From Nitrospira sp. (GTDB lineage Bacteria > Nitrospirota > Nitrospiria > Nitrospirales > Nitrospiraceae): a stretch of 64,000 bases of DNA. This document shows, piece by piece, positions 4,342-45,200 of the stretch (position 1 is its first letter; each line of letters starts with the position of its first letter). The notes beneath the pieces are model-generated. The model did no database searches, had not been told where the DNA came from, and worked only from the letters and a program-made list of their open reading frames with translations. The translations under genes and the position numbers were made by a program. The stretch is taken from positions 3,362,800 through 3,426,799 of the forward strand of contig CP126122.1 in the NCBI GenBank assembly GCA_030123565.1, written 5' to 3'.

Positions 4342-4454
4342 GTGCTGAGTGCTGAGTTCTGATTTCTGAATTTGGAATTTATGGAAAATCCATCCGGACT
4401 CCGTCATCTCCCAACTCAGAACTCATCACTCAGAACTCAGAATTCAGAATTCTG
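4342..4454. repeat. CTCAGAACTCA-type short repeat array reaching into a gene end
   Basis: GAGTGCTGAGTTCTGATTTC is followed, after about 50 bp, by AACTCAGAACTCATCACTC and AGAACTCAGAATTCAGAATTC, partly inverted copies of the first block. The right end overlaps the last codons of the acetolactate-synthase-like gene (stop at 4437), so its terminal N-S-E-F is made of repeat sequence. Confidence 0.6.
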
Positions 4455-30145: not shown

Positions 30146-33100
30146 TCAACTGAGCTGGTCGCCTACGACGGATCGTGGCAATTCCGTTTGTTCTGCGTCC
30201 GGAATGGTATGGGCAACTGTATTCCGACGATCGCCGATCCACAGGTAGTAGAGCACCGGAATGACGACCAGCGTGAGGACCGTCGAGACGCCGACCCCGA
30301 ACAACAGGGAGACGGCCAAGCCCTGAAAGATCGGATCGAGGATGATGACGAAGGCGCCGACCATCAGCGCCGCCGCGGTCAACAGAATGGGCCTGGTCCT
30401 GATCGCGCCCGCCCGGATCACCGCCTCAAGTAGCGGAACCCCTTCGGTCTCCTGGTGCTGGATGAAATCGACGAGGAGAATCGAATTCCGCACGATGATG
30501 CCCGCCAGTGCGATGAACCCGATCATCGAGGTGGCGGTGAAATAGGAACCGGTGAGCCAATGCCCCGGTAAAATCCCAATCAGCGTCAGTGGAATGGGCG
30601 CCATGATGACGACCGGTGTCAGGAAGGATTGGAATTGCGCCACGATCAACAGATAGATCAACAACAGCGCCGCCGCAAACGCGAGGCCCATGTCCCGAAA
30701 CGTTTCATAAGTGATGTGCCACTCGCCGTCCCACTTCATTGCAAACCGCTGCTCCGACCAGGGCTGCATCGCATAGTGCTGCGCGAGCGCATAGCCCTCC
30801 GGCAAGACGAGCTGCTCCAGTTTCTTCCCGATGCCCATGACCCCGTACACCGGACTCTCGCCCCTGTCTGTTCCCCCGCCGCCGACATCCGCAACGACAT
30901 AGACCACCGGCTTTTGATTCTTGTGGTAGATCGCTTTCTCCCGAACGGTCTGCTCCATCCTGATGAGTTCGGATAACGGCACCATGTGTCCGGCAACCGT
31001 TCGCAACGAGATTTCGCCGAGTTGTTCCAAACCGGTCCGTCCGGTGAGCGGAAGGCGCAGCATCACCTGGACCGGCCGCTTCTCCTTGGGGATGTGGACC
31101 AGGCCGACGTTGGCGCCCTCCAACGCCACTCGCAGGGTCTTGACGATTTCCTCCGATGGAATCCCGGCCAACGCCGCCTTCGCGCGATCGACGGTGAACA
31201 CATACTTGACCTGCTCCGCTTCGAGATAGTCATCGACATCGACCACGCCGGCCGTCGTCTCGAACAGACGCCGCACGTCGCGCGCAATGGCTATCTGCCG
31301 GTCATAGTCCGGGCCGTAGATCTCCGCCACCAACACGGACTGCACGGGCGGACCGGGCGGCACCTCCACCACCTTCACGTTCGCCCCGTACTGTCGCCCG
31401 ATCTCCTGCACCGCGGGGCGGATCCGTTGCGCGATGTCATGGCTTTGCGCCTGCCTGTGCTTTTTGGAGACCAAGTTGATCTGAATATCGGCCTCGTGCG
31501 GCTGGTCGCGCAGATAATAGTGTCGCACCAACCCGTTGAAGTTGAACGGCGAGGCAGTGCCGACATAGGCCTGATAGTCGCGCAGCTCCGGAATCGTTCG
31601 CACGTACTCGGTCAACATCTTCGTCACCCGAGCCGTTTCCTCCAGCGTCGTCCCCTCCGGCATGTCGATGACGAGTTGCAGTTCGCTCTTGTTGTCGAAC
31701 GGCAACATCTTGACCACCACATCGCGTGTATAGAACAGAAACACCGAGCCGACCAGCAGCAGCGCAATGACGCAGAGAACGAGGGAGGCCATCAGGGGAT
31801 GGGACAATACCGGAGCCAGCAAACGCTGGTACAGGCGATAGGTGCGACTCCCTTCCAACGAGTCGTGTTCGACGCCGGCCATGTGCACGCCCGGCCTGTA
31901 ACAGACTTGGCAGAACCAGGGAATCACGATGAACGCGACCAGCAGGGAGACGAACATGGCGATCGACGCATTGACCGGGATCGGCCGCATGTAGGGCCCC
32001 ATCAAACCGGACACGAAGGCCATCGGCAGGAGAGCGGCAATCACGGTCAATGTGGCAAGGATGGTTGGGTTGCCGACTTCGTCCACCGCAAACAACGACG
32101 CTTCGCGATGCGGTCGAAGCCGCAGCGTGAGATGCCGATAGGTATTCTCCACCAGCACGATCGCATCGTCCACGAGGATGCCGATGGAAAAGATCAACGC
32201 AAACAAGGTCACGCGGTTGATGCTGTAGCCGATGAGCATGGAGATGAACAGCGTGAGCGCGAGCGTCAGAGGAATCGCGATGGAGACCACGAAGGCCGGG
32301 CGGAGGCCCAGCGTGAGCCCCAGAAACACCACGACCGCCGCCACCGCGATTAAAAGATGCCAGAGCAGTTCATTGGCCTTCTCATCGGCGGTTTCCCCGT
32401 AATCGCGTGTGACGGTCACCTGCACATCCGCAGGAATCAGGGTTCCTTTCATCTCCTCGACTTTTCTGATCACGCCCCGGGCGATGGTGACGGCGTTGGT
32501 GCCGGCCTGCTTGGCGACGGCGACGGTCACGGCGGGAGATTCCTGCGTGAAGCGCTCCTCGTGAAGTGTCTCTCGCGATCCTTCCTGCGCTTCACGTTTC
32601 ACGAGCGACGCACGACGGACGTCTTCCCCATGCCATACATAACTCGTCGCCTCGGTCGGTCCGTCGGTCACAGCCGCCACCTGGCGCAGGTAGACGGGGC
32701 GCTGGTCGTTCACGCCGACGACCAGTCCCTCGAGATCCTCCTTCGATCGGATGAACCGGCCCGTTTCGACGAGAAAACTCTCGTTGCGGCTTTCAAACCT
32801 GCCGGTCGGCAACGAGAGGTTTTCCCCCTGAATGACGCTCGCGACCCGCAACGGCGTCAGGCCGTAAGCCTTCAGGCGTGGCGGGTCGATCTGTACACGC
32901 AACTCGCGGCCACGACCTCCGACCACGAACCCTCCCGCAGTGCCGGTGACTTTCTTCGCATCTTCCAAGACCTGATCGCCCAGTTGCCGCAGCTGGAAAT
33001 CCGTGTACCGTTCGCTCGACAGGGTCAGTGTGACGATCGGCACGTCGTTCACGTCGCGCGGCTTCACTTGAAAGGGTGAAGCGCCCGGCGGCAGCAGATC

Positions 33101-33472
33101 CTGGTTCGACATCAACTTGTCGTAGAGGTCCACCAAACTCTGCTCCATCGGCTCGCCGACATAAAAACGCACGATGATCAGAGCCCCGCCCGGGCGGGAG
33201 ATCGAGTAGACATATTCCACGCTCCTGATCTCGGACAGTTTGCGTTCGATCGGTTTGGTGAGCTGCTCCTCGACCACCTTCGCGGAGGCACCGGGAAACG
33301 GCAGCCAGACATCGACCATGGGCACGACGATCTGCGGCTCTTCTTCGCGCGGGGTGAGCAGGACGGCGAACAGCCCCAACAGCAAGCAGGCGATGATGAT
33401 GAGCGGGGTGAGTTTGCTGCCGACGAAGAGCGCGGCGAGGCGGCCGCTGAGACCGAGGCGAGAATTCGTCAT
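30146..33472 (-). CDS. RND-family efflux pump (HAE/AcrB-like) carrying a repeat insertion
   Basis: The pump of about 1108 residues has 12 helices in two halves, each followed by a large periplasmic loop. The first loop starts PREEEPQIVVPMVDVWLPFPG. The proton-relay helix has GILVDDAIVLVENTYRHL with the expected paired aspartates. It drives export by proton influx with the adaptor (33650-34735) and TolC-like channel. Residues of about 288-309 (RREAQEGSRETLHEERF region) are coded by a CGTGAAGCG repeat at 32546-32605 and have no counterpart in ordinary pumps. The frame is kept through it, so the protein is probably made. ATG at 33472 is preferred to a GTG at 33490. Confidence 0.93.
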   Translation of the reverse strand: MTNSRLGLSGRLAALFVGSKLTPLIIIACLLLGLFAVLLTPREEEPQIVVPMVDVWLPFPGASAKVVEEQLTKPIERKLSEIRSVEYVYSISRPGGALIIVRFYVGEPMEQSLVDLYDKLMSNQDLLPPGASPFQVKPRDVNDVPIVTLTLSSERYTDFQLRQLGDQVLEDAKKVTGTAGGFVVGGRGRELRVQIDPPRLKAYGLTPLRVASVIQGENLSLPTGRFESRNESFLVETGRFIRSKEDLEGLVVGVNDQRPVYLRQVAAVTDGPTEATSYVWHGEDVRRASLVKREAQEGSRETLHEERFTQESPAVTVAVAKQAGTNAVTIARGVIRKVEEMKGTLIPADVQVTVTRDYGETADEKANELLWHLLIAVAAVVVFLGLTLGLRPAFVVSIAIPLTLALTLFISMLIGYSINRVTLFALIFSIGILVDDAIVLVENTYRHLTLRLRPHREASLFAVDEVGNPTILATLTVIAALLPMAFVSGLMGPYMRPIPVNASIAMFVSLLVAFIVIPWFCQVCYRPGVHMAGVEHDSLEGSRTYRLYQRLLAPVLSHPLMASLVLCVIALLLVGSVFLFYTRDVVVKMLPFDNKSELQLVIDMPEGTTLEETARVTKMLTEYVRTIPELRDYQAYVGTASPFNFNGLVRHYYLRDQPHEADIQINLVSKKHRQAQSHDIAQRIRPAVQEIGRQYGANVKVVEVPPGPPVQSVLVAEIYGPDYDRQIAIARDVRRLFETTAGVVDVDDYLEAEQVKYVFTVDRAKAALAGIPSEEIVKTLRVALEGANVGLVHIPKEKRPVQVMLRLPLTGRTGLEQLGEISLRTVAGHMVPLSELIRMEQTVREKAIYHKNQKPVVYVVADVGGGGTDRGESPVYGVMGIGKKLEQLVLPEGYALAQHYAMQPWSEQRFAMKWDGEWHITYETFRDMGLAFAAALLLIYLLIVAQFQSFLTPVVIMAPIPLTLIGILPGHWLTGSYFTATSMIGFIALAGIIVRNSILLVDFIQHQETEGVPLLEAVIRAGAIRTRPILLTAAALMVGAFVIILDPIFQGLAVSLLFGVGVSTVLTLVVIPVLYYLWIGDRRNTVAHTIPDAEQTELPRSVVGDQLS
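32546..32605. repeat. CGTGAAGCG repeat inserted in frame inside the RND pump gene
   Basis: CGTGAAGCGCTCCTCGTGAAG followed by TCTCTCGCGA and GCGCTTCACGTTTCACGAG matches the spacer repeat at 40089-40181 in order and wording (GTGAAGCGTCACTCGCGA...GCGCTTCACGTTTCACG). Here it is 60 bp, a multiple of three, and is translated on the minus strand as V-K-R-E-A ... S-R-E-T-L-H-E. Confidence 0.75.
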
Positions 33473-33523
33473 TGGTCTACCCCACCTCACCTCCCCTTAC
33501 AAAGGGGAGGAAGGAATGTATTT

Positions 33524-33640
33524 CGTGAAGCGTATCTCGCCACCAAAGCGATCAGCCGTCAGTCTACAGGGATCAGCCGGGGAATTTCTGAGAGCTGAAT
33601 GCTGACTGCTGTCGGCTGATAACTATGGCCGGATGACGCT
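33524..33640. repeat. Mixed repeat spacer upstream of the RND pump
   Basis: The 177-bp gap between adaptor and pump holds CGTGAAGCGTATCTCGCC (33524 on), then TCAGCCGTCAGTC, GATCAGCC, GAGCTGAATGCTGACTGC and GGCTGATA of the TCAGC family (33548-33625), and GACGCTTGACGGG. Both repeat families therefore meet in one spacer, inside an operon. Confidence 0.55.
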
Positions 33641-33649
33641 TGACGGGCC

Positions 33650-34735
33650 TTACCCGTTGTGCGGCAACGCCACCGCCGTCATGTCCTGCACGAGGGCGCC
33701 CTCTCTGCCCTTGGTACCGTCGACCATCACCCGCTCACCGACGTTCACCCCCGACAGAACTTCGACGCCCTGCTCCAAGGTGCGGCCGACTTTGACCCAC
33801 CGTAGGCGCGCAATCTGGTCGCTTCCGACCACGAACAGGCCGGCCAGTTCCCCCCGCTCGATGAACGCCGACTTCGGCAGGAACAACGTGTGACTCATGC
33901 CCTTTTCAAGCCGGAGGCGCCCGAACATGCCGGACTTCAATCCAGCCGTTTTGGGAAGATCCACCTTCATGGTGAAGGTATGGGTTTGCGGGTCGCCGGC
34001 GGGAAGAATTTGCGAGACCGTCCCCTTGAAAGGGACGGACCCCAGCGCATCGATGACAATGGGAATCGACGCCCCGACCGACACGGCGCGAATATCACCC
34101 TCCGCGACGGTGGCTTCGAGGCGAAGCTGATCGGGATTCTCTATTCGAAGAAGCGGTTGGCCGGGAGAAGCCAATTCCCCCCTTTCGACCTTCTTCTCGG
34201 TAATGACGCCGTCGAACGGCGCTTTCACTATCGTATAACTCAACTGGGCCAGGACGGCCCTGCGACCGGCTTCGGCCACTCTGAAGGAACGCATGGCATT
34301 CTCCAACTCTTGCTTGGACACGGCGTCCTTGCGGTAGAGCTCCTTCATGCGCGTCAGGTGTGCGTCGGCATTGTCGAGTTCCGCGGTCACCCGGGCCAAC
34401 TCCGCCCGCAGGTCCCGATTGTCGAGCACCAACAAGGTTTGACCTTTGCGCACTAGGCTTCCCTCGCGCACCAGGAGCTCGTCGATCGTTCCCTGGATAC
34501 GGCTTGCCAGGGTCGCCTGGTAAATGGCCGCTACCTGTCCCGTCACCTCGACCGTGACCGGAACCTGGCTGGGCTTCACCTCGATCACCACGGCCTGGAT
34601 AGCCGGCTGAACCGCCGTCGCCGGCGGGACCTCTCCAGGCCGGGACGGTTCCTGTCCCTGCCCACAGCCCGCCACCATAAGCAGGCTCAGCCCAATCCAT
34701 CCGATCTTCGTCACATGCTCGTTATGCTGGAACAC
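33650..34735 (-). CDS. RND periplasmic adaptor lipoprotein
   Basis: The 361-residue adaptor has a lipoprotein signal with lipobox LMVAGC (C24). The lipoyl halves are ASRIQGTIDELLVREGSLVRKG (about 78) and VKAPFDGVITEKKVERGELASPG (about 170), joined by a short coiled-coil hairpin (about 108-155). Beta-barrel and membrane-proximal domains follow (FTMKVDLPKTAGLKSGMFG, then GVNVGERVMVDG). It links the pump to the outer-membrane channel. The start is GTG at 34735 behind GGAGG. It is the first gene of the adaptor-pump-TolC operon. Confidence 0.92.
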   Translation of the reverse strand: MFQHNEHVTKIGWIGLSLLMVAGCGQGQEPSRPGEVPPATAVQPAIQAVVIEVKPSQVPVTVEVTGQVAAIYQATLASRIQGTIDELLVREGSLVRKGQTLLVLDNRDLRAELARVTAELDNADAHLTRMKELYRKDAVSKQELENAMRSFRVAEAGRRAVLAQLSYTIVKAPFDGVITEKKVERGELASPGQPLLRIENPDQLRLEATVAEGDIRAVSVGASIPIVIDALGSVPFKGTVSQILPAGDPQTHTFTMKVDLPKTAGLKSGMFGRLRLEKGMSHTLFLPKSAFIERGELAGLFVVGSDQIARLRWVKVGRTLEQGVEVLSGVNVGERVMVDGTKGREGALVQDMTAVALPHNG

Positions 34736-34864
34736 CCAACCTCCGCAACAAGGCCATCATCGGACACCAACCCGTAAAGGCAGACTGGATCAGATTCGCC
34801 TCCCCATTCCTTCACCCCGTATGAGCAGTCACGGGGGAAAAGGATTCAGCAGAGCAACCGAGGA

Positions 34865-35890
34865 TCAGAACCGATATTGCCCCCCCAGGGATATGATGGT
34901 GTCCTGAAAATCCCTGAGGACGTTGGTCGAGGTGCGTTTGTCGTATTGGAACGCCAACATCACCGTCGCTGCCGTCGAAATGTGATAGCGCAGCTCCGCG
35001 ATCCCCTGATGGGTGCCGTCGAATCGATCCACATGGGTATCGCCGGGGATCCCGCTGGTGAAGGTTTTCCGCCGGTGGATGTAGATGAGGCCGAGGTCGA
35101 TCTGCTGATTCAGACGGAACTCCGTCCCGGCCGATACCAGGTGGAGGTAATAGGACACATCGTCCGCGAACTGAGGTTCCTGCCGGCCCTCCGCCAAGCC
35201 GCGCTCGTAGAGATAGGACAGCGTCACCGTCATCCAGTCCGTGGCACGATAATCGACGCGTGGGCCGACCGTCCAGAAGGTCGTATCCCGTTCGGCAAAC
35301 GATTCGTTGTAGAGGCGGAGGCCATATCGGCCGATCAAGGCCGCCGTGACAGTTTCGTTTACACGCCGTTCGACCTCGACCCTCCAGGTATGGGAGCTGA
35401 CCCGCTCTTCTTGAATCGAACCGGTCCCGGTGCGACGTTCGAAATTCGGGCCCAAGAACAGATTGGGGACATAGCGATAGCGCAGGAGGACCGACGTATC
35501 GGAATTGAACGACCATCGATCCTGGATACGATAATCGCCATGGTTAAATATGGGATTGTTCGTAAAGATCGCCCCCTGGGCCTTGACCGACAGTTCATTG
35601 TTCCCCCGGGAAGTGGGCGTGGAGTGGATGACTTCGAGCGCCGGTTCCCAAACCACATCCTGTGGTTTCTCGGTCGACACCACGGTCGGCTGCGAGGGGT
35701 CTTCCGTCAAACGGAGCCGGCGGGCGGAAGAAAACTGAAAGGCGTCGGTGGTGTAACTGGTCTTTTGTTCGGCGATGGCCGACCATTCGGCCTGGACTGG
35801 CCGGACTGCCCCCCACAGAATGCCGCTCGCAGCAACCAAGGCGACCGCTCGACGGGAGAGTACCAGAACGGGAGTCCCTTGCCGCATCAT
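34865..35890 (-). CDS. Outer-membrane beta-barrel protein, unassigned family
   Basis: The product of about 341 residues has a signal peptide (VALVAASGILWGAVRPVQA) and an entire body of alternating amphipathic strands with aromatic girdles. It ends in SLGGQYRF, the C-terminal phenylalanine signal for outer-membrane insertion. Repeated strand motifs such as RYRYVPNLFLGPNFERR and LGLIYIHRR suggest a barrel of about 16-18 strands. It may be a porin or channel. The start is uncertain: paired ATGs at 35890 and 35887 without a clear ribosome site; a frame to 36013 lacks a signal peptide at its front. Confidence 0.75.
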   Translation of the reverse strand: MMRQGTPVLVLSRRAVALVAASGILWGAVRPVQAEWSAIAEQKTSYTTDAFQFSSARRLRLTEDPSQPTVVSTEKPQDVVWEPALEVIHSTPTSRGNNELSVKAQGAIFTNNPIFNHGDYRIQDRWSFNSDTSVLLRYRYVPNLFLGPNFERRTGTGSIQEERVSSHTWRVEVERRVNETVTAALIGRYGLRLYNESFAERDTTFWTVGPRVDYRATDWMTVTLSYLYERGLAEGRQEPQFADDVSYYLHLVSAGTEFRLNQQIDLGLIYIHRRKTFTSGIPGDTHVDRFDGTHQGIAELRYHISTAATVMLAFQYDKRTSTNVLRDFQDTIISLGGQYRF

Positions 35891-36019
35891 CCGTTGATAT
35901 GGCGAGAAGGAATGTGCAAACGGCCCCTCATCCCGGGATTTTTTCCGATCGGGCGCAAAACAAACGCTCTCACCCCGGTCCCCCTTGAAGGTCCACCAGA
36001 ACCAGCCCGCCAACAGGAC

Positions 36020-36676
36020 TCAGCCTTGCAACCGAAGCAGTTTGGCCGGGTTGACGACGATCAAACTGACGCCGATCGTCATCGTGATGGATGCGGTGAT
36101 CCGGCTCATGGCAGTCGGCGGCAGCCACGCCCCGAGCCTCACGCCCAGAAACATCCCTGCCACACTGCCCAGGAGCACGAAGCCCGTCAGCGGCCAATCG
36201 ACCTGTCCGAATTGCAGATGCCCCACCACCAGTCCCATACCACCGACCTTCAGCCAACAGGTCCGCGGGAAACGGGTCGCACAACGTTCTTCCCGCTCGG
36301 TGTCAGCCGACCACGTCCGTTGCCGCATGACCAGGGTCCTGGTGAGCAAGAGGAGGAAGCCGAACAACAGCAACAGGACTTCGTCCCGCACCAGGCGGTG
36401 GCCGAAGGCGCCGCCCCAAGACCCGATCATGCCGGTCCAACTGAACGCCGCGGCGGCCTTGGTTTTGACCAATCCCCGCCGACCATATTCCCAGGCTCCC
36501 AACAGCGAGGAGGCCGCCACGATCATCAGGGACATCGCCGTCGCCTGTTGCACAGGGATGCCGGCGATATATACCATCATCGGCACTCCCAGAATCGCGC
36601 CGCCGGTCCCGGTCGCCCCGAGTTGCAAGCCGATCGGCACTCCTGCCGAGATGGAACGTACCGCCTGTTCGATCAT
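36020..36676 (-). CDS. TauE/SafE-family anion exporter
   Basis: The protein has about seven or eight hydrophobic helices and the TauE/SafE first-repeat motif GLQLGATGTGGAILGVPMMVY. A second repeat appears at GSVAGMFLGVRLGAW. Members export sulfite, sulfoacetate or other organosulfur anions. It may belong with the thiol/sulfur genes elsewhere in the window, but no adjacent sulfur gene supports a substrate. ATG at 36676 is placed just before the first helix; in-frame GTG (36745) and TTG (36766) would add a charged N-terminal tail. The first gene on the other side (36873) is divergent. Confidence 0.82.
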   Translation of the reverse strand: MIEQAVRSISAGVPIGLQLGATGTGGAILGVPMMVYIAGIPVQQATAMSLMIVAASSLLGAWEYGRRGLVKTKAAAAFSWTGMIGSWGGAFGHRLVRDEVLLLLFGFLLLLTRTLVMRQRTWSADTEREERCATRFPRTCWLKVGGMGLVVGHLQFGQVDWPLTGFVLLGSVAGMFLGVRLGAWLPPTAMSRITASITMTIGVSLIVVNPAKLLRLQG

Positions 36677-36872
36677 ACGGGACTTTTCTGAACGGTCGTC
36701 ACGGAAAGCCTCGTTGGATTGGTTGGCGGCTCTTTCGTCGATCACGCGTCCAGTCTCACTGGACAACGATGAACCACTTAGACAACCGATCCACAGAAAC
36801 GGGGAAATTATCCAATGACACTGCGCGCAGACCGGTAGTCATAATGGTTGTATTATCTTTGAGGAGGGTCCC

Positions 36873-37583
36873 ATGTCGCTCCGTCGAATGTGGTCCGGTA
36901 GGGGTCTTTTTATCGGTCTCATCATCGGATTCGTCGCAGTCGAGTCCATCGTGGCGGCCAGCTTTCTCAGCCTGCTGCACTTCAAGACTTCCAACAATTC
37001 AGCCTTGCGGAGCCAACAGGTCTTGATCGAACTGGAGCGCATGATGGGTACCGTGACGGGAGCCGAGACCAGTCAGCGCGGATACATTATCACCGGGACC
37101 GATGACGATCTCGCCCCCTATCGCGGCGCGCTCGACACCCTCGAGACTCACATTCATCGTGTCGGCAACTTGACCAGACACAACCGCACCCAGCAGGACC
37201 TGGTGGCCTCTCTCGAAACACAGGTCACCCGGCGGGCGGATGAAATGAACCATGCCATCGTGGTAAGGCGCACGGAAGGGCTCCCCTTCGCCAAGTCAGC
37301 TGTGGTCGTCAATCGGAAGAACCGGACGATGGACCGGATTCACGAGATCGCCGGGCAGATTCGTGAAGAAGAAACACGAGCGTTGAAACACCACCGGGAA
37401 GACTCCGACGCCTGGGCCCTCACGTCCGGTTCCTTCGCAGTGGCCTTTTTCCTGCTCACCGCCGCCCTGTTTACGTTGTGCGGGATCGTGATGAAGATGG
37501 CCATGACCAGCCAGGCGCAAGCCGAACGTATCCTTCAAGCCCTCCCGCATCCCTCGCCGACCGCTGCGACAAGATCATTGTAG
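36873..37583 (+). CDS. CHASE3-domain membrane protein without an output domain
   Basis: The 236-residue protein has an N-terminal membrane helix (12-35), a helical periplasmic CHASE3 domain (about 40-180) and a second helix (about 190-215), then only about 20 residues of cytoplasmic tail. The CHASE3 hallmark ETSQRGYIITGTDDDLAPY is clear, and the later LVASLETQV helix fits. CHASE3 normally sits in front of a kinase, cyclase or chemotaxis domain; here nothing follows, and the next gene is on the opposite strand. It could pass a signal to a separate partner or be a truncated kinase. The start is well set by GAGGAGGG. Confidence 0.85.
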   Translation: MSLRRMWSGRGLFIGLIIGFVAVESIVAASFLSLLHFKTSNNSALRSQQVLIELERMMGTVTGAETSQRGYIITGTDDDLAPYRGALDTLETHIHRVGNLTRHNRTQQDLVASLETQVTRRADEMNHAIVVRRTEGLPFAKSAVVVNRKNRTMDRIHEIAGQIREEETRALKHHREDSDAWALTSGSFAVAFFLLTAALFTLCGIVMKMAMTSQAQAERILQALPHPSPTAATRSL

Positions 37584-37666
37584 TCGAAGGCGGCGCGAAG
37601 CTCAAAAGGCCTCCGGCTTGACGAACGTCGTTTCACGAGCGAGGAGGACGGCCCCTTTGGTCCTGG

Positions 37667-38140
37667 CTAGGTGCGGGCAAGGACCACCGCCGCCAGCAAC
37701 ACGAACAGCGCCAACAGCAGCGAGAGTCTCGGCAGGAGCGCCGAATAGCGCAGGAGGATCAGTTCACCAGCTGTTCTCTCCTTCTCTGCCGTTTTCATGA
37801 TCCGCCGCACCCGCGGTCCCACGACGAGGTCATGCAACAATGTCAGGCTGAACAGGAAGGCGGCGAGTCCCATCTTGACCGCAAAGATCGTCGGCCACCG
37901 CCAAGGTTCGCCCAGGGGGATGGCTCGACCTCCAGCCAGTACGACACCGGTGCCGACAAGCATCCCCATTGCGCCCCAGACCACGCTGCGAAACCGGTAG
38001 GCCACCTCGCGGAAGAGTGCCGCATGCTGAGCGAACCGGCCGTCGCGCCTCAACAGCGGCACGAGTACGACCGACAAAAACACCATCCCTCCGATCCAGG
38101 TGACGGCCGACAGCAGATGAATCCAGATCAACGCGAACAC
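37667..38140 (-). CDS. CopD-like four-helix membrane protein
   Basis: The 157-residue protein has four helices and begins FALIWIHLLSAVTWIGGMVFL, matching the first helix of CopD/DUF2269-type proteins with its conserved histidine and W-I-G-G. The second and third helices carry FRSVVWGAMGMLVGTGVV and a histidine in LTLLHDLVVGPRV. CopD members import or handle copper at the inner membrane. The presence of a copper oxidase in the neighbouring cluster makes a link plausible but unproven. The start is GTG at 38140 preceded by AAGGATG; a longer frame to 38320 has no hydrophobic start. Confidence 0.72.
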   Translation of the reverse strand: MFALIWIHLLSAVTWIGGMVFLSVVLVPLLRRDGRFAQHAALFREVAYRFRSVVWGAMGMLVGTGVVLAGGRAIPLGEPWRWPTIFAVKMGLAAFLFSLTLLHDLVVGPRVRRIMKTAEKERTAGELILLRYSALLPRLSLLLALFVLLAAVVLART

Positions 38141-38208
38141 AGGAGCATCCTTTCCGATCGGTGAATCGGAACAACATGACCGAATTGAGGGGGAGAGGCA
38201 AGTAGCGG

Positions 38209-38919
38209 CTAAAAGGCAATGCCGACATAGGGCCCTGCTTGTAAATAGCTGTTGGAGGTATTGGTCATGTTGGCCGTCAGGTGGTAACGGGCATCCATTC
38301 CCACTTTGAATGCCTTCCACACTTGATACTCAAAACCGGCGCCGAACTGGACGCCCACATCCAAATACTGTGTCTGGTTGGAGGGAGGGCTGATGACGTG
38401 GATGTCCAACCCTACAGGAATGAGCCAGGGCCGAAAGGCGCTGCCTTCCCTGAACTTCAGCTTGGGAGCGATGTCGATCGTCACCATCGTCAACTGTTGC
38501 AGCGACGGCGTGGTCGAGGTGACCTGCAGGCCTGCCGGCGGAGTCGTGCCGACGCCGATGTTTCCCGTATTGGTCACGACTTTGGAAGCAACGCGATTGA
38601 ACTGCAGTCCGATCTCCCCCACAGCCCAGGTCCCGTTCATCATGCCCCAGGCGTTCTTTGAAAGGGCCAGATCCAACCAGGCGCCGACATACCATCCGTT
38701 TTGACTGTTGTTCAGACCGGCGCCGAGCGGATTCCTGGCGTCGGTGAACAGAGCATTGGACCGGTCGCTGTCCAACCGCATGAACCCGCCCTTGAACGCG
38801 ATCATATTGCCGATCTCTTCAGCCGAAACCGGCCGCACACCAAAAGCAACGAGCACCGCGACGATCGCAACCGTCGCACGCACGACTCCACCGCTCCCAC
38901 CGCTCATCCGTTTCTGCAT
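38209..38919 (-). CDS. Small outer-membrane beta-barrel protein
   Basis: The 236-residue protein has a cleavable signal peptide (VVRATVAIVAVLVAFGVRPVSAEE). About 10-12 amphipathic strands follow, ending in GPYVGIAF, with the C-terminal phenylalanine typical of barrels. Strand signatures such as IAFKGGFMRL, VGVQFGAGFEYQVW and VGMDARYHL are like the OmpW/opacity-type 8-stranded barrels. Function is unknown. ATG at 38919 lies behind a GGGGGG tract. It follows the formylglycine-fold genes at the end of the copper-oxidase cluster. Confidence 0.76.
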   Translation of the reverse strand: MQKRMSGGSGGVVRATVAIVAVLVAFGVRPVSAEEIGNMIAFKGGFMRLDSDRSNALFTDARNPLGAGLNNSQNGWYVGAWLDLALSKNAWGMMNGTWAVGEIGLQFNRVASKVVTNTGNIGVGTTPPAGLQVTSTTPSLQQLTMVTIDIAPKLKFREGSAFRPWLIPVGLDIHVISPPSNQTQYLDVGVQFGAGFEYQVWKAFKVGMDARYHLTANMTNTSNSYLQAGPYVGIAF

Positions 38920-39047
38920 GATGCCCCCCCTGGGCTGTTGTTGAGGGAGAGCCCTCCGGACTCTCCCGTCCGCTTGGTGCATTGCGCTCGCCGGCCCGAG
39001 GCATCAGCATGTGAAGTAATCGATTCATAGAAACACCGAGACCATTA

Positions 39048-39140
39048 CTTTCAGCTAACAGCTGTCAGCTTCCGAGCTTCGAATCTGAGGGCTAATTGCT
39101 GATAGCAGATGACTGCTCGCTGATGGCGGACAGCTGATTG
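39048..39140. repeat. TCAGC-family repeat forming the 3' end of a gene
   Basis: TTTCAGCTAACAGCTGTCAGC, GCTAATTGCTGATAGCAGATG and GCTGATGGCGGACAGCTG are degenerate copies of the TCAGC unit. The right half is inside the coding region of the formylglycine-fold gene (stop at 39092), where it is read as N-Q-L-S-A-I-S-E-Q-S-S-A-I-S-N. Confidence 0.65.
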
Positions 39141-40069
39141 CTGCCGGCCACCGATTTCGCACATCGAAATCCCATCCAATTGATCTTGGTGTTGGGATCG
39201 GTCCCGTTCCGCATGGCCACACGCATGGTCGTGGTGCTGTCCATCCACCCGCCGCCTCGGAAGGCCTTCTGGGTGCCGGTCTCCGGCCCCTTCGGATTCC
39301 GATCGGGCGAGGACTTGTAATAGTCCAGGTCGTACCAATCCGCCACCCATTCCGCGACGTTGCCCATCGTTTGATGGAGACCATAGGGGCTGACCGCGTT
39401 GTCATACTTGTCCACCGAGATGAGCGGCGGATACATCAATAACCGTTCGGGACGGTCACGGACCGGACCGGACAGGCCGGTACGGCCGAAGTTGGCGCGG
39501 CTCAAGCCGGCCGACTGGTTGCCCCAGGGATTCAGGCGTCCATCCTCCCCTCGCGCGGCCTTTTCCCACTCCGCTTCGGTCGGCAAACGTTTGCCGGCCC
39601 AGCGGCAGTAGGCATCGGCGTCATACCACGACACGTGCATGATCGGATGGTTCGCCATGGACTCCTGGAAATTCCCGCCGTCGTACCGCCAATCCAACTG
39701 CGGCAATTTGCCGGTGGCGAGGATGTACTTCAGGTAGTGAAGGTTCGTCACTTCGTACTTGTCGATCTCATAGGCGTCCAGGTACACGCGGCGCTGCGGC
39801 AGTTCCGACCGATAGGCCAAGCGATCACTCTTTTTGTCGCTGCCCATCAGAAATTCTCCCGCCGGGATCAGCACCATTTCCTCCTTGGGCTTCATCGTGG
39901 CCACGCGTTTCTCCGCGAGGGCCTTCCCTTCCCCGGTCCATTCGACCACGATGTCCTGCGTGTCCAAGCCACGCGCGACCGGAACCAGCGCGAACAATGC
40001 CGCTCCGATCAGCAGAACCTGCCTGACTCGTTTTCCTCGATGCGAAATGCCCCTTCGTCGTTTCTCCAT
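39092..40069 (-). CDS. Secreted formylglycine-generating-enzyme-fold protein (SUMF1-like), copy 1
   Basis: The 325-residue protein has a signal peptide (LLIGAALFALVPVARG) and an FGE-sulfatase fold. Markers in order are VLIPAGEFLMGSDKK, the DAYEIDKYEVTNLHYLKY segment, HVSWYDADAYCRWAGKRLPTEAEWEKAARGEDGRLNPWGN, GLHQTMGNVAEWVADWY, AFRGGGW and GFRCA. The paired copper-binding cysteines that true formylglycine enzymes carry after R-G-G-S/G are absent (GGGWMDSTTTMRVAMRN), so oxidation of sulfatase cysteine is unlikely. A structural or maturation role outside the cytoplasm is inference. The last 15 residues are repeat-derived. Confidence 0.88.
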   Translation of the reverse strand: MEKRRRGISHRGKRVRQVLLIGAALFALVPVARGLDTQDIVVEWTGEGKALAEKRVATMKPKEEMVLIPAGEFLMGSDKKSDRLAYRSELPQRRVYLDAYEIDKYEVTNLHYLKYILATGKLPQLDWRYDGGNFQESMANHPIMHVSWYDADAYCRWAGKRLPTEAEWEKAARGEDGRLNPWGNQSAGLSRANFGRTGLSGPVRDRPERLLMYPPLISVDKYDNAVSPYGLHQTMGNVAEWVADWYDLDYYKSSPDRNPKGPETGTQKAFRGGGWMDSTTTMRVAMRNGTDPNTKINWMGFRCAKSVAGSNQLSAISEQSSAISN

Positions 40070-40088
40070 CTTCGGCCTCCTCTTGTTT

Positions 40089-40181
40089 CGTGAAACGTTA
40101 TTCGTGAAGCGTCACTCGCGAAAGACCAGATACAGTTCCAGGTTCCGTCGGCGCTTCACGTTTCACGCTTAACGCTTCACG
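40089..40181. repeat. Full-length CGTGAAGCG-family repeat spanning a gene end
   Basis: CGTGAAACGTTATTCGTGAAG, CGTCACTCGCGA and, after 28 bp, GCGCTTCACGTTTCACGC then TTAACGCTTCACG form an inverted repeat across the boundary between the two formylglycine-fold genes. The gene ending at 40098 runs into it. Confidence 0.7.
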
Positions 40182-41045
40182 TGCATCCTGCGCACATCGA
40201 AACCCAATCAAATAACTCCAATGGTCCAGGCCACCGGAGTTCCGCCCGGCGGAACGGGCGACTTCAGGATCTTCATTCCAAGACCCACCGCGAAACACCT
40301 TGTCCTGCCCCGATACCGGCCCGACCGGATTCCGGTTCACCTCACGCCGGTAATATTCCGGATCGAACCAATCCGACACCCACTCACTGACATTACCGGC
40401 CAATTGGTACACCCCATAGGGACTCACGCCGTTCTCGTACCGATCCACATTCGCCAACGGGGGGTACTTCGCTCCGCGCTTGGACCCCGGATGGGCGATG
40501 TTGCTCTTGATCCATCCGGCCGGTTCATTCCCCCAGGGGAACATGCGCCCATCCTCACCGCGCGCGGCCTTCTCCCATTCCGCCTCCGTCGGCAGACGGG
40601 CACCACGCCATCGACAATAGGCGTCGGCTTCCCGCCAAGAGACGCCGATCACCGGATGTTTTGCAATCTTTTCCGGAAACGGCTGTTCCCGCCAGTAATG
40701 CGGCCAAGCCGCCCCGGTCGCCAATACATACCGCAGATAATTCACATTACTGACCTCGAACCGGTCGATGCTGAATGCATCGACATAGACCTGCCGTTGC
40801 GGCTGCTCCTGCGGCCCGGCGGCACGATCAATCCGGGGGTCGCTCCCCATGAGGAACGGTCCGGCCGGAACATGGGCCATGCCCCCCGGGACCTCGATCA
40901 ACGCCAACCGCTCCGCCTCGTCGAGTGGAGACCACAGGGGCGGCGGCTTCGGAAGGTCGTGATCGGCGTGAACAAGCCCCAGAGGCGGGACGCCCATCAA
41001 CAGCAACGCTGCCACTATTATGCTGATACCCGCTGATCTGGTCAT
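40098..41045 (-). CDS. Secreted formylglycine-generating-enzyme-fold protein (SUMF1-like), copy 2
   Basis: The 315-residue protein is a paralogue of the next gene downstream, with the same domain: MAHVPAGPFLMGSDPRID, VYVDAFSIDRFEVSNVNYLRY, GVSWREADAYCRWRGARLPTEAEWEKAARGEDG, GVYQLAGNVSEWVSDWF, VFRGGSWNEDPEVARSAGRN and GFRCAQ. The catalytic cysteine pair is again missing. It has a hydrophobic signal (IIVAALLLMGVPPLGLVHA). The final 25 residues, from L-S-V-K-R-E-A to T-L-H-E, are written by the CGTGAAGCG repeat. It stands 28 bp before copy 1, so the pair is co-transcribed. Confidence 0.88.
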   Translation of the reverse strand: MTRSAGISIIVAALLLMGVPPLGLVHADHDLPKPPPLWSPLDEAERLALIEVPGGMAHVPAGPFLMGSDPRIDRAAGPQEQPQRQVYVDAFSIDRFEVSNVNYLRYVLATGAAWPHYWREQPFPEKIAKHPVIGVSWREADAYCRWRGARLPTEAEWEKAARGEDGRMFPWGNEPAGWIKSNIAHPGSKRGAKYPPLANVDRYENGVSPYGVYQLAGNVSEWVSDWFDPEYYRREVNRNPVGPVSGQDKVFRGGSWNEDPEVARSAGRNSGGLDHWSYLIGFRCAQDAREALSVKREAPTEPGTVSGLSRVTLHE

Positions 41046-41050
41046 GGCCG

Positions 41051-41100
41051 CTCAGCTTTCAGCCGTCAGCTTCTGAAATCAGAAGCTGAAAGCTGATCGC
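41051..41100. repeat. TCAGC-family palindrome
   Basis: CAGCTTCTGA (41067-41076) and TCAGAAGCTG (41079-41088) are a perfect 10-bp palindrome with a 2-base centre. An outer pair CAGCTTTCAG (41053-41062) / CTGAAAGCTG (41086-41095) offers a competing fold. It lies between the carboxypeptidase-regulatory-like gene and formylglycine-fold copy 2. Confidence 0.6.
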
Positions 41101-41126
41101 TCATGGTTGACTGCTTCACTCCGCGC

Positions 41127-42056
41127 TTACCGCTCCTGCTTTTGGACCATTGGATCGATTTCCTTCTGCGTATCCTCAGGCACGTTGTAGCGAACATAGG
41201 GATGGTCCATTACCTCGTTGGCGTAGAGCCGCCCGGTCGGGGCTGGAACTGCGATATCGGCCTCCACCGTCCCCTTCTGGCCGATGGTGACGCTGTGCTC
41301 GATCGCGGTCCGGATATAGGGGTGCCAGACGACCAACTTATAGGTGCCCGGCGGCACGTTGGTCATGGTGAACCGGCCCTGTTCGTCGGTCTTGGCAAAG
41401 TACGGATTGGTGACGGCCAGACCCCAGCTCTCCATATAGGCATGGAAGCCACACTGCATGACGAAGATCCGGCGGCCCTTGCTGAGATTGACCAGTTGCT
41501 TCATCGGCGGGCCGGCCATGTGCCTGTGGTACAACGCGGCATCGCTGCGATCCTTGAAGTTGCGCGGGTGCTGTTGGTTCATCGGCAGCGGCACGTTGAA
41601 CAGCACGCGCGGACCCAATTGCGATGTTTCATAGGCCTGAATGTCGTGCATGACCGGGTCCATGTTCACCACCGTCACCGACTGATCGTCCCGCACGACC
41701 GTCGTGAACGGAAGGAAAAGGCAGTCTTTCGCCTCGATCTGCGGCACGCCCATTTCGTCGAACGGTTTGCCCCTCTCAATCCCATCCAGATAGACCACCA
41801 CGTCGCGGAACTCACCCTCCGGCCCGACCTGGAACGGTTGCAGGATGCGCCAGCCCTGCCCATCGGAAATGCGCCCGCAATAGTATTGGTCCGGCAACGT
41901 CACGAGGTTGTACCCCTTCGGCTTTGGAACCTTCCCCTCCAGCTTCACGGTCCCCGTGAGGGTTCCGCCCTCCGTCACTGCGATTTCTTCATAGGCCCAC
42001 GCGGAAACGTTGAGGCTCAAAGCGATCAATCCCGCCGCCGCAATCTGCTTATACAT
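41127..42056 (-). CDS. Secreted carboxypeptidase-regulatory-like domain protein
   Basis: The 309-residue protein has a signal peptide (IAAAGLIALSLNVSAWAYE). An N-terminal cupredoxin-like or Ig-like sheet (TEGGTLTGTVKLEGKVPKPKG) is followed by a middle part with HDIQAYE, RHMAGPPMKQ and QCGFHAYMESWGLAVTNPYFA. The C-terminal carboxypeptidase-regulatory fold reads TDEQGRFTMTNVPPGTYKLVVWHP. The central histidine/methionine/cysteine stretch resembles a plastocyanin-type metal site (H...C...H...M), which could carry copper; that is inference. It is located between the giant multicopper oxidase and the formylglycine-fold pair, all in one direction, so a shared periplasmic role is likely. Confidence 0.75.
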   Translation of the reverse strand: MYKQIAAAGLIALSLNVSAWAYEEIAVTEGGTLTGTVKLEGKVPKPKGYNLVTLPDQYYCGRISDGQGWRILQPFQVGPEGEFRDVVVYLDGIERGKPFDEMGVPQIEAKDCLFLPFTTVVRDDQSVTVVNMDPVMHDIQAYETSQLGPRVLFNVPLPMNQQHPRNFKDRSDAALYHRHMAGPPMKQLVNLSKGRRIFVMQCGFHAYMESWGLAVTNPYFAKTDEQGRFTMTNVPPGTYKLVVWHPYIRTAIEHSVTIGQKGTVEADIAVPAPTGRLYANEVMDHPYVRYNVPEDTQKEIDPMVQKQER

Positions 42057-42087
42057 TGTCCTTCCTCCGGCCTTGTTCTTTTGAGCT

Positions 42088-42165
42088 ATCAGTCGTCAGC
42101 TTTCAGCCTTTGAGATTCAGCATCTGACTTCTGGCTGACCGCTGATAGCTGAATGCTAAACGCTG
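42088..42165. repeat. TCAGC-family intergenic repeat
   Basis: GCTATCAGTCGTCAGCTTTC and, 30 bp on, TGGCTGACCGCTGATAGCTG form a long imperfect inverted repeat in the spacer between the oxidase terminator and the next gene. Confidence 0.55.
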
Positions 42166-42167
42166 CT

Positions 42168-42213
42168 CCTAAAACACAAATGGGGGAGCCGCATGAATCA
42201 GGCAGCTCCCCCA
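42168..42213 (-). terminator. Intrinsic terminator of the multicopper oxidase gene
   Basis: On the minus strand TGGGGGAGC (42213-42205) pairs perfectly with GCTCCCCCA (42189-42181) around a 15-base loop and runs into TTTGTGTTTT. It begins 28 bp past the stop at 42241. This is the cleanest intrinsic terminator in the window, and it suggests the oxidase is mostly transcribed alone. Confidence 0.8.
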
Positions 42214-42240
42214 TCCGTTGTTATGCCATGACCAGCCCGC

Positions 42241-45200
42241 CTACTTCATGGCAGTCGGAATCGCCTGCACACCAGGCTGCACCTCGGCTTGACGTGCGCC
42301 TGATCCGCCGGCCCCGAGGGGCTGAATCCGCGAATCGCCGGTCGGCAACACGCGCAGGTAGCCCCACTGTCCCGACTGCGTGTAGGGCAGCCGTGCGTTC
42401 GACCACACGAAGTCTCCCACCTGACGATACGGTCCGCCCGCACCGCCACGAATGAAGATATCGAGGATCTCAGAGCCGGCATACTCCACCACGCTGATCA
42501 TGTCGGCGCCCGGCATGTAGGGTTCGATCGGCCACTCGTGGCCTTCGACCCCGAACATTCCGTTTTGCTCGCTGTTCGCCCCGATCACATGGATACGGAT
42601 CGGATCACCAGCATGCGCCTCGATCAGAGGCGTGACCGGATCTTCGGGCTTATCAACCGCGCAAGGCTGGAAGATTTTCCCGAGCGAGCAGCCTTGTTCT
42701 TCGCGGAACTTGTACGGTTCGGCGCGGTAGTTGACCGACGTCAAACCGGCCACGTTCTGCACGTACGGCATGAACGCGGTTCCGATGATGTTGTCCTCAT
42801 CTTGGAAGAAGAGGGCCACGTCACGATAGTTCCGCTTGCCGACGTTTTCCGGCAGGCTGGTGTCGACGATGACATCCGCCCGCCAGGTGTTCTTCTGAGA
42901 CACATCGGCACCGGTCACGGGGTCGCGATACTGCGATCCTTTCGGGCCGATCACGATCGCGCCGTACAATCCATTGCGCGGATTGACGACGATGTTGCCA
43001 CCGTCCCACACCAACGACGTCGTTTCCTTATTGGAAGGATGCGCGTAATAGGTGTAGGTGCGGCTTTCGCCCGGAGCCACGGTCTGATCGCCGGGGTTGT
43101 TCCCCACGTTCAAGCCCTGGCTGTCTCGCGGATCGAAGGCCAGGCCCGGCGCAAAGAACGACGCCCGGCTTTCCTTCATCTTGTTCTTCAATTGCACCTT
43201 GATACAGTCGCCCAGATTCGCGCGCAGCGTGAGCGGATTCGGCATCACGTTGCCCGCCACGGTCGCGGCTTCTTCCTCCAGCGCGAAGATCTTGCCTTCC
43301 GGCATGGTCATTTCGATCTTGCGCTCGAAGTCCACCTCGATCGCATCCGGCGCCTTCGGATTGAGCTTCATCGGGCGATCCAACGCCACGACATTGAAGC
43401 TCTTCACCGGGGCATCAGACGGACAGACGGAATTTGGAGTCGCTGGAATCCCGAGAGGATTGGTCCCCTTGGGCAGCGGCTTCAGGTCCGCCACTTCCTT
43501 ATCGAGCACGCGAACGATGCCCCATCCCCCTTCGGCAAAGTGTGACGTTCTGCCGTTGAAGTGGATGTAGTCACCAGGCATACCCTGGAATCCGCCCGCC
43601 TTGGAGACGAGGTCATACCGCTCGGCGATCCCGACGTGAATCGAGTTCTTCCGATTGGCATCCGCCGCATACCGCTCCGTGAGGAAGGTATGGCCGGAAA
43701 TCGTCCAGACGTGCGATTCGTTCATCAGCTGGTGCAACAGACGGAACACCATGGTGTCGCCCGTGTACGCCCGCAAGAGCGGCGTGCCCGGATCGCCATG
43801 GATCGCGCTGCTGAACAGTTTCGAGGTATCCGGATTGTTGGACAGGCGTTGCGCGAACGGGGCAGCGCGGAAATTGAAACCGCTGCCGGTCGTATGCGTC
43901 CCGCCGTTGATGTACTTGTTCGGCGCGTTCAAGATCTTCTCCGGCATCTGGAACGACACCGTCTTACCCGCTTCCAACGCCACTTCGATCGGCTGTCCGG
44001 GAGGATTACCGGCTTCGATGACATTGACGGTGTGCGGCACCGTGTCGTGGATGGAGACCATCAGCTCACGGAAGCTGCCGCTGACACCGACGCCGATCGG
44101 CTCGTTGGTGTGGATATCCGCGATCGGCCCGCTGTATACGAGCTTGCCGTTCTTCGGATCATGATAGGTGGATCCGTATGGTTCCACGATCGTCACGCCG
44201 AACCCGCCGTGAGGCCAAGTCGTCGCGCCGAACGCATGGTCATGCCAGAACACGGTTCCCATATCCACGTCCACCCACCACCTGTACCGCACGAACTCCG
44301 GCGAGACAAGATCACCCGCCGGATGGTTGTGCTTCAGTGGTTTAAAGAACGTGACCACATCGCCCTTGATGTCCTTGACACGGACGACTTCCTGACAGCT
44401 CTTGTCGCGAGGCAAGGAGGCCGTCGGATCGTTGCCCTTCTCCAAACAATCCATCCCCACCATCAACTCAGTGTTGACGTGGAACGCGGCGGCGCCGGGC
44501 GCCATCTGGATCTTCATGGAGGAAGCGCCGGCCTTCGCCTCGCCGACGAGCTTGGCAACCATCGGTGCCGGCAATCCATGCTTGGTCTTCTTGCCCCACA
44601 TGGTGAACGGCCGGACCGACATTTCATATTCGAACCCCGAGATCACACCATCCGAATTCCCAGTGTCGAACTGGAAGAAGTGAGGATGGATGTTGATCTT
44701 GGACGACTGGAAGTTCGTGTAATCGTCGTCGTCCCACTCGCTGGTCAACAACAAGTCCACGCAGTCATACACGTTGGCACGGATGACGGCGGGAAGTTTC
44801 AGATCGTCGTTGGCCCTGGTCAAACGCTCTTCCTCGTGAAGCACGTAGATCAGGCCGTCCTTGTCCACCATGGCTGGCTCCTTCCCCTGCTTCTTGGCAA
44901 GGGTGATCGGCATGCGGACAAAGTGAATGTTGTAATGCTTCCGATTGGCGTTGTCCGGACAGAGGCTCCAACGGCCCTGTTCGCCCGGCATCGCCGGCTC
45001 AGAGGTGCGATCGCCGTTTGCATCCTGGTGAATCGGCTCCAACCATGGCGCACCACTGTGATTCGCAGAGAACGGCACACGCTTACCGAAATGCGGCTTG
45101 AACAGCGGCCAGGCCATTTTTCCTGTCGTCGGATCGAACAGGATCGCCGGTCTGGTGCTGTCATCCCACTTCGCCGCAGCGGGATACTTCGGATTCAGGG

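Follow-up and report, generated by a model that had tools for sequence, protein, structure and literature searches.

Why do two unrelated genes of a Nitrospira genome contain the same repeat, read in the same frame? The two genes lie in the 64,000-nucleotide stretch of DNA that is analysed here (the window). The original prediction placed one peptide at the end of the first gene and the other inside the second, and both are found there: the open reading frame at 40098-41045 (minus strand) terminates in LSVKREAPTEPGTVSGLSRVTLHE followed by a stop, and SLVKREAQEGSRETLHEERFT is encoded within the gene at 30146-33490 (minus strand). Since both read VKREA...TLHE from related DNA, the observation of one repeat in one frame in two unrelated genes stands. 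What was drawn from it, selection for a tolerated, stop-free frame, holds in part: genic copies do use a stop-free frame, but no preferred peptide is seen.

The repeat is composed of heptads of the form CGTNNNN (common ones are CGTGAAR, CGTATCT, CGTCTCT and CGTCGTT), which are the building blocks of a palindrome. An inverted repeat with arms of 7-nt units, CGTGAAR and its relatives, underlies both peptides, and the element is about 65 to 95 nt long. The copy at the 3' end of the first gene extends over 40089-40182 on the minus strand (inverted repeats I1, I2 and I4; DNA fold; frame analysis) and folds back better than its shuffles (DNA fold z of -2.28). The copy within the second gene occupies 32544-32608 on the minus strand (frame analysis, repeat match) and has the blocks GTGAAACGTGAAGCG and TCGCGAG.GAC.CTTCACGA in common with the first. 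This relatedness is not due to chance. With up to three mismatches, GCGTGAAACGTGAAGC has 6 matches in the window against 0.74 expected; CGTGAARCGTNANNCGTGAARCG has 34 matches in the genome against none for its reversed control, and with two mismatches allowed the unit array has 120 against 9. Unit arrays are present in 28 of the 29 genomes of the same genus, where the reversed control gives 0 matches overall. That the genus is Nitrospira follows from a contig of one of these genomes (G011), which has 163 of 219 sampled exact 40-mers in common with Nitrospira sp. CR1.2, by our own arithmetic all that the two stretches overlap. The element is thus a palindromic, hairpin-forming, multi-copy unit of the same kind as the RPEs, and it has terminal inverted repeats as MITEs do. 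Copies of about 90 nt at four sites of the genome are alike and have a common core beyond the heptads, which is consistent with dispersal of an element. The CGTGAAR unit also extends beyond Nitrospira: the exact triple occurs in at least 120 stretches against about 0.06 expected under uniform composition, and by our own grouping the 80 titles among the matches listed include Chloroflexi, Nitrospirae, Desulfobacterota, Verrucomicrobia, Acidobacteria, Omnitrophota, Bacteroidetes and Proteobacteria. A known RNA family as the identity of the repeat is ruled out for positions 32000-42500 of the window, in which Rfam gives no match above the gathering score.

The two host genes are of different families. 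The first encodes a protein of 315 residues with an FGE-sulfatase domain (Pfam PF03781, 2.7e-53, residues 55-285). The domain ends at residue 285, and the remainder is a tail derived from the repeat; matches to orthologues mostly stop at residues 287-291. This copy is not read through. The frame of the gene meets its stop near the far end of the repeat, and this TAA (40098-40100, minus strand, from frame analysis) is the stop codon of the gene, so that 9 nt at the end of the palindrome fall outside it. A reading of the opposite strand (ORF at 39834-40172) was considered and is a mechanical ORF only. The second gene encodes an RND efflux pump of 1114 residues (ACR_tran, PF00873, 6.7e-164, with RND relatives in the PDB).

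The answer to the question of the frame is found in the unit itself. CGTGAAR carries TGA, and in two consecutive units the frames that start from C and from T run into it. The sole open sense frame of a two-unit arm is GTG AAR CGT GAA RCG, which encodes VKREA or VKRET, and an arm of three or more units has no open sense frame; on the antisense side (TTCACG) all three frames are open at all lengths tried (1 to 4 units). The VKREA agreement between the first arms of the two copies is therefore forced, and uninformative, because the stops leave one sense frame. The agreement of the second arms follows from the spacers between the arms, which are 42 and 21 nt and hence both multiples of three; by our own arithmetic this has a probability of about one third, and the match is even less surprising because the second arm of the FGE copy has a stop in one frame. 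Over the full length, each strand of the pump copy has one of its three frames stop-free, and that of the coding strand is the frame in use; in the FGE copy all six frames contain a stop. The original prediction reasoned from six possible frames, and these counts, with VKREA as the only sense reading of a two-unit arm, remove that null. It also named a case that would speak against it, that only one frame is free of stops, and for the sense arm this is what the stop rule gives. The frame agreement is what a stop filter leaves behind, and nothing indicates that one peptide is preferred; frame selection need not be invoked where the stops within the arm already shut its remaining frames. The rule accounts for the apparent frame preference, and it can be calculated beforehand.

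Does the rule also hold for the other copies of the repeat? For this census we use the places of the 16-mer CGTGAARCGTGAARCG in the source genome and its relatives (29 genomes of the same genus), and genes are called with a home-made codon-usage caller trained on the long ORFs of the analysed loci. The sample consists of 16-mer places among the matches listed (genomes up to G020), with one to two loci of other genomes and the places in the own genome (100 of the 120 two-mismatch matches). Among these matches there are 143 unique clusters, of which 98 are intergenic, 17 internal to genes, 17 N-terminal (for the most part probably wrong starts) and 11 C-terminal. The 45 clusters that overlap genes are to be compared with the window, for which a closely similar caller gives 0.85 as the coding fraction; for these 143 listed clusters the depletion in genes has a binomial probability of 4e-47, as a rough yardstick. 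All 8 internal sense rows among the matches listed, both window genes included, read VKREA, and the 9 internal antisense rows are distributed over A0/A1 (1 gene), A1 (2) and A2 (6). In the 11 C-terminal copies, again among the matches listed, the stop lies in or adjoins the units, as in NusB (SVKRET, then stop) and a UvrA-like protein (PREA, then stop).

A stricter rule, which demands coding support on both sides, keeps 18 of 192 unique sites in 439 sequences (the window and all loci except L320-L439). All 11 sense copies again read VKREA, in 6 host families, two of them weak as genes (L196, L199), and the 7 antisense rows use the frames A0, A1 and A2. The genome-wide frame test that the original prediction called for, carried out here over 29 genomes, thus gives a divided outcome: sense copies are in the only open frame in 11 of 11 cases and antisense arms are in all three open frames, a combination that points to a stop filter. 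A mild preference for A2 may exist, in an antisense sample that is small and includes orthologues. The probe CGTGAARCGTMTCTCG is open in more than one sense frame; of its 142 unique sites, 6 lie inside supported genes, and these come from 3 host families.

We turn to the genes that contain the repeat. By Pfam and sequence, the hosts are the RND pump, the FGE-sulfatase protein, an Lhr-type helicase, two hybrid histidine kinases, NusB and a UvrA-like protein; further hosts are a protein of the pyruvate:ferredoxin oxidoreductase family, a protein with a weak nitroreductase match and an unnamed protein of 446 residues. C-terminal copies are carried by the NusB, UvrA-like and ferredoxin-oxidoreductase proteins. 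In the pump, the Lhr helicase and the two kinases the reading is open on both sides of the copy, and orthologues without the insert exist, so the repeat is in-frame in unrelated conserved genes that it has not destroyed. The kinase copies interrupt the match of the receiver domain to its family at profile positions 68-70, the same place in two different kinases, and the position of the Lhr copy is an alignment gap in the nearest solved relative. NusB and its apparent orthologues in five genomes (L096, L164, L232, L251, L266) have heptad-derived tails, SVKRET, NVNREA and DVTRET among them, each with the stop within a unit.

The orthologous sites are occupied in different ways. In the Lhr loop (27 aligned loci, with one of 28, L305, dropped), 6 loci have the CGTGAA type, 10 have another heptad family (SHQPSAIS-like, TCAGCC), 3 are empty and 8 have a loop with no clearly recognisable unit. 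The Lhr types alternate between close relatives (G025/G001 and G005/G003, on a pump and Lhr protein tree from one FastTree run with midpoint root), which fits repeated replacement or an exchange of gene segments between species. The kinase insert is present in 2 of 28 covering loci (L468 falls short of the site) and is missing from the nearest relative, G021. The residues before this insert (LEATRLIR, in L440 and L443) are closer to those of L119, a different hybrid kinase, than to those of the nearest orthologue, and because of this likeness to a paralogue the kinase copy may stem from gene conversion between kinase paralogues. Empty and filled sites of Lhr and the kinases are too diverged to define boundaries, and no target-site duplication is definable at them. 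At the FGE C-terminus, the CGTGAA repeat is found in the source genome only (1 of 22 examined); the tail differs in all 21 relatives whose C-terminus is covered (L152 gave none, and L153-L159 were left out) and resembles the other heptad family, most clearly in L134, which ends in QLSAVSQELLLKADR and a stop. The second family therefore occupies the same Lhr loop and the same FGE C-terminus in relatives, as these counts state.

For the pump, 25 loci are aligned (5 of 30, L085-L089, gave no match to the search pattern and were dropped): 8 have an insert of the LVKRE type, 4 a second type, 1 a short form of the second type, and 12 have no insert or a short remnant. Across the 8 species, pN/pS is 0.65 in the insert vs 0.087 in the flanks, and the differences by codon position are 107/114/147 in the insert (66 nt) vs 238/122/1630 in the flanks (135 third positions). 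The insert is under little codon-level constraint. Its overall divergence is nevertheless lower than that of the third positions of its flanks, so the insert does not change with complete freedom; a degree of constraint, a recent spread or gene conversion may be the reason. A conserved hairpin at this site is ruled out: the hairpin is strong in 1 of the 8 inserts (L062, z of -3.8), and the other 7 have z from -1.6 to +0.15. From the pN/pS, the spread of the differences and the weak hairpins, it looks as if the peptide is tolerated, the structure of the DNA decays and the open frame is kept. In another locus (L063) the pump loop GASRLTPHEA is encoded by the units CCTCACG TCTCACG CCTCACG, and is perhaps the remnant of a deleted repeat.

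With a probability of about 0.86, we explain the locus by a short, hairpin-forming heptad repeat whose reading frame is fixed by its own stops and which is tolerated in permissive places of genes. The locations, the stop rule, the frame census, the scarcity in genes, the empty sites and the decay are direct observations. According to this model, the repeat resides mostly between Nitrospira genes and at times landed in the loops and C-termini of proteins, its arrival probably being the insertion of a non-autonomous element. Copies in other frames would truncate the gene and be purged, or be tolerated only at a C-terminus, where the gene then takes its stop from the repeat, the FGE gene being an example; such purging would account for the scarcity of copies within genes. 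After insertion the peptide would be tolerated, with no evident use, and the hairpin decays as the frame stays open. No mobilising enzyme was found in a search for Y1 transposases (PF01797), the only type searched: the genome has three such genes, none with adjoining heptad palindromes. Mobilisation by the genome's own Y1/RAYT transposases is accordingly unsupported, and the REP/RAYT arrangement, palindromes beside a Y1 gene, is absent at all three loci.

Two other explanations are to be weighed against the stop-filtered repeat. The peptide VKREA...TLHE might itself be selected as a useful charged, flexible loop or tail, with its frame favoured over other open ones. We regard this as improbable: the charged pattern VKRE..RET..HEER is kept by the pump insert in 8 species, and the slower change relative to flanking third positions would also fit, but the differences in the insert are nearly even over the codon positions and pN/pS is 0.65, and in relatives the Lhr loop and the FGE tail hold unrelated peptides. 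Likewise A2 (LHAS/TLHE) is the commonest internal antisense frame among the matches listed (6 of 9), yet A0 and A1 are in use as well. More improbable still is a single event, in which recombination inside this gene cluster carried a piece of the repeat from the pump gene to the FGE gene, or in the opposite direction, the frame match being common descent. Against the proximity of the two copies (same strand, a distance of about 7.5 kb, with a 15-nt block and others in common) stand their unequal ages and structure, as the pump insert is old (8 species) and the FGE copy is in 1 of 22 genomes, and their spacers are unlike (42 vs 21 nt). Equal similarity is also seen with many further copies, and the genome's next best matches to the FGE copy are located elsewhere.

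An extension of the stop-filtered reading can be offered tentatively, and we think it somewhat less probable than its opposite: loops and C-termini of Nitrospira proteins may be landing sites at which families of heptad palindromes are swapped as cassettes, with a repeat broadly shared across phyla rewriting them. The data that bear on it are the Lhr loop, with the CGTGAA element in 6 species, TCAGCC in 10 and nothing in 3, and types that differ between close relatives, the FGE C-terminus, where CGTGAA is present here and 21 relatives have a tail that looks like a domesticated TCAGCT element, and the occurrence of the exact CGTGAAR triple in genomes of many phyla. If the two families do reuse the same loops, the old question of hotspot versus diverged single insertion becomes testable.

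How does the element compare with known systems? In the available parts of the descriptions, Rickettsia and Wolbachia palindromes occur between genes and in-frame inside unrelated conserved genes, and in Rickettsia orthologues may carry different palindrome families at the same place, the choice between a hotspot and divergence being left undecided (PMC3767692; PMC10969869; PMC2229807). The likeness to these elements that the original prediction had drawn is a fair one as to kind: the Nitrospira palindromes, too, are between genes and in-frame inside genes, with two families at the same orthologous sites. The likeness is drawn from descriptions, and by its host the element is not a member of the RPE family (Rickettsiales). 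RPEs are 100-150 bp and heptad arrays go unmentioned in those parts, whereas the Nitrospira element has 7-nt units, about 65-95 nt and a free-living host genus. The TAACTGA heptamers of Beggiatoaceae, Cyanobacteria and Bacteroidetes are, in the part of the report available, patchy over phyla, with horizontal transfer suggested (PMC4679880). They are similar in having 7-nt units with TGA, a stop in one orientation and open in the other, but the same part describes another unit, direct rather than palindromic, with the Maribeggiatoa copies mostly just upstream of start codons. The heptanucleotide elements of Geobacter metallireducens are dispersed tandem 7-nt units within and between genes, and the likeness is in this arrangement; their units are GGGACCG and others, interpreted as regulatory in the accessible text, in which reading frames go unmentioned (PMC2700814). 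Among bacterial MITEs, an available portion of one paper (PMC2229807) describes those without stops (ERIC, the 107-bp form of Correia) as occurring fused in genes, and RUP and the 155-bp Correia, with stops in all frames, as confined or nearly confined to intergenic places. MITEs with ORFs are thus subject to the same stop filter as the Nitrospira repeat; several have known terminal repeats and target-site duplications in that portion, and no duplication is established here.

Judged by titles and the beginnings of abstracts, we find no description of a CGTGAAR repeat or of coding palindromes in Nitrospira, and in the accessible part of a Nitrospira genome paper (PMC5767232) "palindromic" is used only for CRISPR. 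In-frame palindromes are known as a kind, to which Nitrospira adds a coding palindrome that is built from heptads and recurs in particular loops and tails. A free-living genus joins those with palindromic repeats inside working genes, and its filled and empty orthologues allow direct tests. A repeat that carries TGA has just two ways into a gene, in a single frame of one of its arms or as the terminator.

Some further features of the two heptad families are observed in and around the window. A paralogous FGE gene (39092-40069) is adjacent to the one at 40098-41045, and its tail (39091-39143, minus strand; TRF period 21 and tail comparison) is of the other heptad family and reads NQLSAISEQSSAISN. 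A palindrome of that family (TCAGCTT/AAGCTGA; inverted repeats I4 and I6) is located at 41054-41105, in the gap that separates the FGE gene from the one that follows. The tails of the two paralogues look partly swapped relative to other genomes: the FGE1 tail here begins with QDARE, as does FGE2 of relatives, and FGE2 here and in G021 has the QLSA-type tail that is usual for FGE1. An exchange of C-terminal tails between the neighbouring paralogues was considered. At another locus (L008, C1:2916280-2916449), more than 20 perfect tandem GTGAAGC units begin directly at the 3' end of a gene of 396 residues, and these units provide its stop (LREA, then stop). A third palindrome of 7-nt units, CTGAGTN/AACTCAG, is present at 4342-4452 of the window.
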